Assembly: GCF_900496995.4 (NCBI RefSeq)
Contig: NC_044018.1
Coordinates: forward strand, 28,810,047 to 28,874,046
Reading direction: 5' to 3'
DNA length: 64,000 nucleotides
Source: Aquila chrysaetos chrysaetos
Lineage: Eukaryota > Chordata > Aves > Accipitriformes > Accipitridae
Shown here: piece after piece, positions 24,401-27,308 of the stretch
Position numbering within the stretch: the first letter of the stretch is position 1
Layout: the number at the start of each line of letters is the position of its first letter
The notes under the pieces: generated by a model
The model's database searches: none
Told to the model about the DNA's origin: nothing
The model's input: the letters and a program-made list of their open reading frames with translations, nothing else
Position numbers and translations under genes: made by a program

Positions 24401-27308
24401 CCACACCCCCGGGGAGGGCCGGGCTGGGGGCAGGATTCCCTGTCCCCCCGGGCATGCGGGCCTGCTGCTGCCGCCCCCCACCCTTGGGTGCCTGGCGGGT
24501 GCTCAGTGCGGCCCCCCCCCGGCTCCCCCCACCCCGCCGGTAATTACCCGTCGCCTGCTGCGCCCGGAACAGGCGCAGAAGCTGCGGTGAAATATTTATA
24601 GGTCCCTGGATGTGGCTGAGCCCCCCCGGCCCCCCTCAAGGCCCTCAGGCCCTGCTGGGCTGCTCTCAGCGCCGTTGCCCAGCACTGGCCCACCCCGGCA
24701 CACACGGAGCCCCCCGCCCTGCACATCCCACCTCGCTCACATTGGGGGGGGGCCTGGGCCCCCCCCACCCCAACGCAGGCAATATGGTTTCCCAGCTTGG
24801 CCCCCCCCAACATGGCCTCCCCAGCACGCCCCCCCCCCCCCCAGCATCGTCACCGCCCCCCCCCAGCATCCCCAGCACGGCCCCCCAGTACAGCATCTCC
24901 AGCGCTTTCCTCCCCCCCCCGCACGACCCCCCCCATGCAGCCCCCGGCCCGGAGCATCAGCCCCCGCAGGGTCCCCTGCCATGGGGGTCAGGATCCTCCC
25001 CCCTCCCCGCCCCAGCCCGGTCCCGGTGGCACCTGCCGGGGGGGGGGGGGGCCGAGACCGGCGGCGGCGGCGAAGAACAAAGGGCCGGGGGGCGGCACAG
25101 CCCCCCCCCGCACCGGGGACGAACCCCCGCACCGGGCACGACCAACCCCCCCCCCACCGGCCGCCCCCAGTGCGCAATCACCCCCGCCCGGGGTGCAGCT
25201 CTCCCCTCCCCCCCCCCGCGACCGCAGGCCCCCGGGCACGGCTCCCCCCCTTCGGCCCCCCCCCCCCCGGTACCGGGGCCGGTACCTCGTTGAGCAGGAA
25301 GGTAGCGCTGGGAGTCAGAAAACGACATAGACGGGGCGAGCCGAGCCGAGCCGCCCGCGCCCCCCCCCCCGCGCCCCCCCCCGCCCGACTCCGGTACCGG
25401 CACCGGCTCCGGCTGCGGCTCGGGCTCCGGCTGGCCCTGCCCGCTCCGCCGCCGCCCCTCCCCGCCCCTCCCCCGCCCCCGCCTCCCGCCGCCCCCCCCC
25501 GGGGGCTCACGGAGCCGCCCCCGCCGGCTCAGCTTGGGGAGGAGGGGGAGGGGAGGCTTGGGGGTCGCGGTTCGCCTTTCCCGGGGCTAGCGGTGGGCTC
25601 CGGTCCCTCTCCGGTTTGACCCGCGGGGGGGGGCTGCACTGGCAGCCGCGGGTCCCGAGCGGTCCCGGTGTGGTGCACCGGGACGGGGCCCCGGGGCATC
25701 TCCCGGGGGAGCGGGGGTGGGGGGGGGGTAGTTTGCAAAGAGGGCAGCTCCCGGCGGGGAGAGGGAGGGGTCCCGGGGCGGCGGTGGAGGGGGGGGGTGC
25801 TGCCCTCTGCCAGCCCGCGGCCGGGGGTCCCGGGGGCGGCGGCGGGGGGGGGTCCCCCGCGGGTACCTCCATGCTCCGGTGCGGCGGCCCCCGTCCTGCC
25901 CCGAGCCGGTAGCAGCCCCGTCTGCAGGGCGAGCCCTGCGGCGGGGCCGGAGCCGCTCCCGCCCCCCCGCCGCGCCCCCCCCCCCCCCCGAGGAGGGGGG
26001 CAGCGGCGGGCCTCGGGGGACCGGCCCGGCCCGCCCCGTTACCGCGCAGCGGGACGGGCACCGGAGGGACCGGTCCGGGATGGCTCCGGTCCGGACCGGG
26101 GGCCGCGGGGCAGCGCTTGGTGGGGAGGGGGCTCCGGGTAGCGGCGGGATCGGCCGCGGGTACCGGCACCGGGCACCGAGCACCGGGCACCGGCCCCGGT
26201 ACCGGGCAGCGCGGCGGGGCCGGGCCGGGCCCTCTCCGAGGTGCTGAAGGGGCCGCGCCGGGTGCGGGACCGGGACGAGGGGTCCCCGGGGGTACCGGGG
26301 GGGGTACCGGGAGGGGCAGGTGCTACTCTAGGAGAGAAACGGGATGCTCGGGCCGTTCTACGCCCCCCGGGGCCGCCCCTACCGGAACCCCCTGCCCTTC
26401 CCGGGGCCGCCCCGGTATCCGCTCCCCCGTCGGCGGCCTGAGCGGGGGGGGCGCCGGTCAGGCCGGGGTGAACCGGAGCAGGCGGGGGTGGGGGGCGGCG
26501 GGGGGGGCGGTTCGTGACACTCCCCCCCCCCCCCCCCCGGGCAGCGCACGGAGACGGCCCGGTGCCGGCTGATGGACCGGGCGAGGCGGCTCAGCGGACA
26601 CCCCCCGCCCTCCCCAACGCCCCGTTCCCCCTCCGCTGCCTCAGTTTCCCCGGGGCCGCCCGCCACCCCCCCCCGCGCCGCAGTGCCGGTGCCCGGCGGC
26701 CGGCCCGGCCCTGACGCAGCACTCGCTATTTTTAGCCGCGGGGAGCGGCTGTTGCGATGCCACCGGCGCCCGGTGCCGGCGCCCAGCCCCGGTCCCGGGG
26801 GAACGGCGGGGCGGGGACGGCCGCCCGGTTTTCCCCGGTGCGGGGGTTGGGACGGGAGAGCTCGGCCGCTCCCCGCCCCGGTCCGTGCCTTAATGCGGAG
26901 CCGCAGCGCCCCTGCCCCCGGGAACGAACCGCGGTGAGGGAGGGGGGCCGGGGCTGGCGGGGCTGCCCCGCCCCGGTGCCGGTGCCGGTGCCGGTGCCGG
27001 TGCCGGCCCGCTCACCTGCCTGCGGAGGATGCTGGAGGTGGTGTCGGACGAGGTGCTGCCGTCCGAGCGCTTGAAGCGGCTCTTGCGCTTCGGGAGCCTC
27101 CGGGGGCTCTGCGGGGGGAGCGGCGGGGGCGGCCGGTGAGCACCGGGCGGCACCGGGCGGCGCGGCCCCGCCGTTACGCTGGCACCGGCGGCCCCCCGCG
27201 CTGCGGGCAGAACCGAAACGGGCCGCACCGGGCCCGCGGCGGCCAGGAAGGCTCCGGTCCTCTCACCTGGAAGGAGCCGGGAGCGGCGGACTGTGCCGGG
27301 GCGGACAT
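21492..27308 (-). CDS. CACNB3: Voltage-gated calcium channel beta-3 subunit (long N-terminal form)
   Basis: Fourteen exons on the minus strand, 5' to 3': 27308-27267, 27108-27016, 24162-24040, 23951-23829, 23742-23626, 23557-23493, 23385-23366, 23112-23032, 22798-22740, 22650-22541, 22454-22303, 22219-22124, 22042-21893 and 21782-21492, giving 506 residues after discounting one excess base. It is a cytosolic MAGUK-like subunit that binds the channel I-II loop and promotes surface expression. Common core: [19 protein letters not shown]3 region ([23 protein letters not shown]), the tiny KQKQKQ exon, then the guanylate-kinase domain ([65 protein letters not shown]). The C-terminus [13 protein letters not shown] is diagnostic of beta-3. 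Exon 5 (23742-23626) has one base too many at the 9-C run 23693-23701. A second, short start lies at 25328. Confidence 0.94.
24539..24612. promoter_or_regulatory. A/T island in CACNB3 intron
   Basis: GGTAATTACC is a perfect 10-base palindrome (homeodomain type), and AAATATTTATAGG lies about 50 bases on. The island is between the short-form start and the first common exon, in otherwise C-rich DNA. It may be an intronic enhancer. Confidence 0.3.
24790..24955. repeat. C-rich degenerate repeat in CACNB3 intron
   Basis: CCCCCCAGCA(T/C) and CACGGCCCCCC words repeat irregularly upstream of the short first exon. It is low complexity and no coding is supported. Confidence 0.5.
25286..25328 (-). CDS. 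CACNB3: CACNB3 alternative first exon (short form)
   Basis: The minus-strand start at 25328 begins MSFSDS, and a frame shifted by one base continues ATFLLNE up to a GAG|GTACCGG donor. This matches the mammalian short form [14 protein letters not shown], 14 codons (42 bases), but the exon here is 43 bases: three Cs (plus-strand GGG, 25310-25312) where two are expected. Read as written, it would put the common exons out of frame. Either a base is in error or this start is disabled in this genome. A GC-rich promoter-like stretch lies upstream. Confidence 0.7.
26726..26735. promoter_or_regulatory. MEF2 consensus site in CACNB3 5' region
   Basis: CTATTTTTAG matches the MEF2 consensus YTA(A/T)4TAR exactly. 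It lies about 280 bases downstream (in the CACNB3 sense) of exon 2a and next to TGACGCAGCA, a MAF-like half-site. This would suit a gene expressed in muscle and neurons. Confidence 0.4.
27016..27308 (-). CDS. CACNB3: CACNB3 alternative 5' exons encoding the long N-terminus
   Basis: Exon 1a (27308-27267, 14 codons) reads [14 protein letters not shown] and ends at a CAG|GTGAGAG donor. Exon 2a (27108-27016, 31 codons) follows an excellent acceptor (CTCCCCCCGCAG) and includes [19 protein letters not shown] before the donor CAG|GTGAGCG. Both are phase 0 and join in frame to the common GSADSYTS exon. The exon 2a sequence closely resembles the second exon of the beta-1 subunit ([19 protein letters not shown]), so this is the ancestral beta N-terminus kept in the beta-3 gene. 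Isoform use is inferred; splicing cannot be seen from DNA. Confidence 0.8.

Follow-up and report, generated by a model that had tools for sequence, protein, structure and literature searches.

An A-type, two-exon N-terminus probably retained in the CACNB3 gene of a bird

In the available portion of PMC3972191, genes for calcium channel beta subunits follow a family plan in which exons 1a and 1b encode an 'A' head and exon 2, located downstream, encodes a 'B' head; the same portion states that mammalian beta-3 'lacks N-terminal exons 1a/1b'. Two candidate exons of the A type found upstream of a bird CACNB3 gene raise the question of whether they form a working N-terminus, a relic or a later copy from a paralogue. 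We examined this question in a 64,000-nt stretch of Aquila chrysaetos chrysaetos DNA (contig NC_044018.1), which we call the window. Our analysis indicates that the two exons very likely constitute a functional N-terminus of CACNB3, of the ancestral A type, and that the bird gene is probably able to make a long-head version of the protein. The kind of finding is ordinary, namely an exon pair present family-wide that is retained in a paralogue described without it in mammals.

The identity of the gene was established from its neighbours and from its protein matches. Searches with tblastn located ARF3 (2449-3746), RND1 (11661-13850), DDX23 (15489-19935) and an adenylyl cyclase gene (matches from 34152) on the plus strand, with CACNB3 on the minus strand between the last two. 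Leaving aside the member of the adenylyl cyclase family, the gene order agrees with ADCY6-CACNB3-DDX23-RND1-ARF3, which we take to be the order at human 12q13. When the 127-residue N-terminal part of the protein was compared with PDB, the best chains were those of beta-3 (156 bits), followed by beta-2c (148) and beta-1 (144), although chains of the latter two match the head as well. Judged by sequence, the gene with the two exons is therefore the CACNB3 orthologue, as the initial annotation had proposed. Its common exon 3, to which the heads join, occupies 24040..24162 of the minus strand, starting with the shared 23-residue stretch and ending RAK, while the remaining coding exons (SH3, HOOK, GK and C-terminus; 21492..23951, minus strand) end with RPWAKDSY and a stop codon. 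We looked for a second CACNB3 copy in the assembly and discarded the idea, as a search with the SH3 exon matched only the window itself and beta-1. That the genome is a bird's is reflected in a search with a feather keratin, which gave 145 matches with E ≤0.001 and identities of up to 94% when 150 of 156 candidates were scored, a count in which the related keratins of scale and claw would be included. The tail repeat of CR1, sought as another avian marker, had 0 matches in the window at up to 2 mismatches. One keratin match elsewhere in the genome, at C9:25803381-25803695, has a frame open over 21490 residues, which is probably an artefact of a run of N or of a repeat.

The coding part of exon 1a (27267..27308, minus strand) comprises 42 nt encoding 14 residues and ends at a phase-0 donor, CAG/gtgaga. 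It is followed by a gt...ag intron of 158 bases with a GC content of 0.83 (27109..27266, minus strand) and by exon 1b (27016..27108, minus strand), whose 93 nt form 31 codons with phase 0 at both ends. Both exon lengths are multiples of three, and splicing them onto exon 3 (24162-24040) yields a frame without stops. With splice-site weight matrices, the two donors came out in the top 0.5% (1a) and the top 0.4% (1b, CAG/gtgagc) among 2607 GT sites of the minus strand, and the acceptors of 1b and of exon 3 ranked in the top 2.3% and 4.1%, respectively, among 4324 AG sites. Lower ranks were obtained for the donor of exon 3 (top 14.1%) and the acceptor of exon 4 (top 8.1%). The expectation of two phase-0 exons with strong splice sites, encoding the predicted peptides and joining in frame to the exon at 24162, was thus borne out. 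A scan of 34000-24163 for ATG-to-donor stretches of at most 240 bases with a score above 5 returned 23 candidates, among which exon 1a had the top score (10.9 versus 8.6 for the runner-up). Upstream of exon 1a, the frame is closed by a stop at 27425, and the stretch from there to exon 1a holds no other ATG in frame. The region 27000-27600 has an observed/expected CpG ratio of 0.95 and a GC content of 0.81, and simple repeats adjoin the 1b donor, in surroundings of about 81% GC. Across the GC-rich interval 27309-34151, exon 1a and the adenylyl cyclase gene of the opposite strand are arranged divergently, and a promoter region common to both genes is possible there.

Exon 1b is recognizable by homology. 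Within the window, the beta-1 exon 1b peptide, with query letters taken from a PDB alignment, matched 27090-27031 at 18 of 20 residues (E = 1e-8). Against PDB, exon 1b alone retrieved beta-1 chains (E 2.1e-5) and beta-2c (E 0.0017); when exons 3 and 4 were added, the alignment continued into beta-2c with one single-residue gap, and the aligned range implies one single-residue gap with beta-1 too. Across the 1.23 Gb genome (144 contigs), all seven matches to a query of 1b plus exon 3 with E ≤0.001 fell on beta loci, CACNB3 exon 1b being the weakest of them (E 5.9e-4). GC-rich DNA can resemble an exon by chance, and here the GC content around exon 1b is near 0.81 and the window holds 140 open frames of at least 150 residues; because of the E-values obtained in the window and in the genome we rejected this explanation, to which we assign almost no probability.

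The base composition of exon 1b points in the same direction as its homology. A or T occurs at 18, 10 and 0 of the 31 first, second and third codon positions, so that the first two positions together (28/62) differ from the third (0/31) with a Fisher p of 1.4e-6, and the third positions differ also from the flanking intron (127/674; p = 0.003). Since A and T persist only at the positions that mostly set the amino acid, in a region driven towards G+C, exon 1b looks like selected coding sequence. Exon 1a, with A or T at 5, 4 and 2 of 14 positions, is too short for a codon test. In the comparison of exon 1b with bird beta-2, synonymous sites are saturated, yet 18 of 25 residues are identical. The basic-SDGS...RQ cluster described for A-type heads (PMC3972191) is present in exon 1b, and the A-type layout is found here too: a variable exon 1a, phase-0 boundaries and both exons placed upstream of the short-head exon.

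Each of the four beta loci identified in the genome had an exon 1b, always in phase 0: C8 (beta-1), C3 (beta-2), C6 (beta-4) and C15 (beta-3). On C8, C3 and C6 it shares the contig with the GSA(D/E)SYTSRPS exon of its own gene, the names CACNB2 (C3) and CACNB4 (C6) being assigned from sequence. The initial annotation had described the second exon as nearly that of beta-1 and the head as of the beta-1 type. The likeness holds at 18 of 20 residues but is not specific to beta-1, as three other beta loci carry the exon; similarly, the head is of the ancestral 1a/1b type, but this type is common to beta-1, beta-2 and beta-4, and exon 1a is unlike that of beta-1.

Two further explanations deserve to be weighed against retention of a working head. 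Mammalian beta-3 is described with the exon 2 type of head only (PMC3972191, in the portion available), and the bird exons could be decaying ancestral head exons that are out of use, as presumed for the mammalian lineage. Decayed exons are not expected to keep frame, phase, donors, codon bias and identity to beta-1, and for this reason we disfavour the idea of a relic and regard it as very improbable: the frame is open and the phase intact, the donors are in the top 0.5%, A or T stands at 0 of 31 third positions but at 28 of the 62 others, and the core is identical to bird beta-1 at 19 of 19 residues. This last identity extends to the nucleotide level, where 55 of the 57 bases (19 codons) in 27034-27090 equal those of bird CACNB1 1b, synonymous sites included. 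Because synonymous sites are so alike, we examined whether exon 1b of CACNB3 was overwritten or supplied by CACNB1, through gene conversion or exon duplication, after the vertebrate duplications.

The two genes use the same codon at 13 of the 14 shared multi-fold residues of the exon versus 75 of 120 in ten other blocks, a comparison picked after seeing the data and with an uncorrected Fisher p of 0.034. When all shared residues are counted, however, the figures are 18/21 versus 171/240 (p = 0.21). A comparison of CACNB3 with CACNB1 in 19-codon windows (122 windows from 8 of the 10 blocks, both halves of the frame-shifted SH3 exon left out) placed exon 1b at the edge of the scale but not beyond it, one window of exon 12 having 3 mismatches. 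Moreover, the ends of 1b (SPRRLP and SILRR) and the flanking intron ends are unlike those of beta-1, GC3 values of 1.00 and 0.93 force likeness of codons, and the position of 1b upstream of the short exon is that of the family plan. Given the p of 0.21 over all shared residues and an exon 12 nearly as alike, we consider gene conversion only a minor rival, and a later copy of either kind unlikely, if marginally less so than a relic. Retention of the ancestral exon pair is the simpler reading.

If the long head was retained, what became of the short ones? The MSFSDSS-type short head, which we take to be a beta-3 form, is represented by an exon at 25286..25328 (minus strand), of 43 bases, with a +1 frameshift as assembled and a weak donor (GAG/gtaccg, score 3.0). 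Its SATFLLNE segment scores 38, whereas none of five shuffled queries exceeded 14. Relative to the presumed form the exon has one C too many, and its halves are in different frames; when the assembled exon is spliced to exon 3, a stop follows after 36 residues, and no ATG was found in frame upstream of the shifted exon. A second +1 shift, between KEGG and DIAFIPSP, coincides with nine consecutive G in the SH3 exon (23693..23701, minus strand). This one is a probable homopolymer error of the assembly, since a gene without the obligatory SH3 frame could not work. The extra C of the short exon lies within a run of only three, where we would expect an assembly error to be rarer than in the nine-G run. 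The location of the short exon, between 1b and 3, matches the family plan as given in the available portion of PMC3972191.

An exon of the MYDD type was sought between 24163 and 34000 and was not found there: the full query scored 13 and a beta4a-like query 15, versus 21 and 16 for the best of five shuffles, and the GFEDSEA half-query scored 19 versus 22 for the best shuffle. The MYDDSYVP half-query did retrieve LYGGSYSP at 27791 (27768-27791, minus strand, followed by gt) with a score of 23 versus 16 for shuffles, a candidate that we rejected because it lacks an ATG and is not followed by anything resembling GFEDSEA. When all six frames of the window were compared with a MYDD-type head, the top matches were four places, with 6 identical residues out of 15. 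The long head is hence the only intact CACNB3 head found in this assembly. Because the short exon is frame-shifted as assembled and no MYDD-type exon was found, the long head may be the main coding form of CACNB3 in this bird. A bolder proposal, which we advance tentatively and hold to be rather unlikely, is that the long head is the sole intact start of beta-3, the short exon being truly shifted and the MYDD exon gone; the beta-3 proteins of birds and mammals would then have reciprocally kept different halves of the ancestral head repertoire, and would differ in nuclear import and channel gating as a consequence.

Regarding expression, the transcript would start upstream of exon 1a, in the CpG-rich DNA, and splicing in the order 1a-1b-3 would skip the short-head exon, giving a beta-3 with a 45-residue basic head ahead of the common exon. 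Exons 1a and 1b are probably transcribed and spliced. The predicted head is basic, exceeds the short heads by about 30 residues and would be disordered. Its basic block, KRKSRFKR, aligns with the position of the reported nuclear-targeting motif of beta-4, RRSRLKR of bird beta-4 standing over RKSRFKR of CACNB3; the charge is kept but the second arginine is replaced by lysine, and the exact motif is not kept. For this alignment, beta-4 residues 28-38 were placed on the stretch using what we presume to be the numbering of human beta4b. The range itself comes from the available portion of PMC12992490.

The accessible parts of three papers link the region of the N-terminal double-arginine motif of beta4b to nuclear targeting (PMC4672716, PMC12992490, PMC9019481), the review among them presenting the motif as only partly responsible for nuclear docking (PMC9019481). 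As regards beta-3, nuclear entry is described as a 'piggyback' process, with a signal of its own that does not function by itself (PMC12992490, same portion). KRKSRFKR could give the long-head beta-3 a nuclear import signal of its own, and this form might need no carrier for nuclear entry. An example of a basic stretch acting as an import signal within a head is beta2e, according to the part of PMC12034931 available. Head length has also been connected with gating: in membrane-tethered beta-2 constructs it tunes CaV2.2 inactivation and PIP2 sensitivity (PMC9662827, available part). These constructs offer a looser analogy for the long-head beta-3, whose longer head would be predicted to shift how the channels that beta-3 joins inactivate and how sensitive they are to PIP2. 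A nuclear or gating role of the long head is plausible.

Among the open-licence PMC matches listed, no title or abstract opening announced a long-head beta-3; the portions of PMC2365960 and PMC12977960 available are silent on such a head. One sentence in the available portion of PMC3972191, taken literally, attributes A forms to all four vertebrate subunits and makes beta-3 the only one without a 'B' form. The letters A and B seem to be swapped in it, since the sentence contradicts its own paragraph, in which mammalian beta-3 is without exons 1a/1b (PMC3972191). If they are not swapped, that paper would already credit beta-3 with an A form. A long head retained in a bird would make the short-only beta-3 a loss on one line and not something inherent to beta-3, and a natural beta-3 with a head like those of beta-1, beta-2 and beta-4 would provide a test of the role of the head in nuclear import, PIP2 sensitivity and inactivation. 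According to the available part of PMC6679542, two song nuclei of the zebra finch show higher CACNB3, and these are therefore a tissue in which to seek the long form.

The long head can finally be set beside the heads of known beta genes. Mammalian CACNB3 heads (MYDDSYVPGFEDSEA, in PDB chains) precede the same 18-residue start of the common exon, but they consist of one short exon of 14-15 residues without the basic block; a second mammalian form, of 14 residues, is absent from the PDB chains matched. The exon 1b of the CACNB2-like gene (C3:56870496) has, like that of CACNB3, 31 codons in phase 0, with 18 of 25 aligned-core residues identical, but differs in its GC3 of 0.35, in the roughly 162 kb that separate it from its exon 3 and in having RRKNRFKG in place of KRKSRFKR. 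The CACNB4-like exon 1b (C6:52222030-52222116) is also in phase 0 and has a 13-residue basic block in register with that of CACNB3, whereas its serine/threonine stretch is shorter by three residues (with a manually placed gap), identity is limited to 14 of 22 aligned residues, and RR stands where CACNB3 has RK. A further counterpart is bird CACNB1 (exon 1a, C8:1764028; exon 1b, C8:1766023-1766109, 29 residues), which likewise has a phase-0 head of two exons, an exon 1a ending CAG/gtga, 19 residues of 1b identical to CACNB3 and a junction to GSAESYTSRPS. Its exon 1b, in contrast, begins GKYS and ends NSFVRQ, and its exon 1a (MVREGGMARTPYSSTQDIQMDVFDNAALQ) has a sequence different from that of CACNB3 exon 1a.
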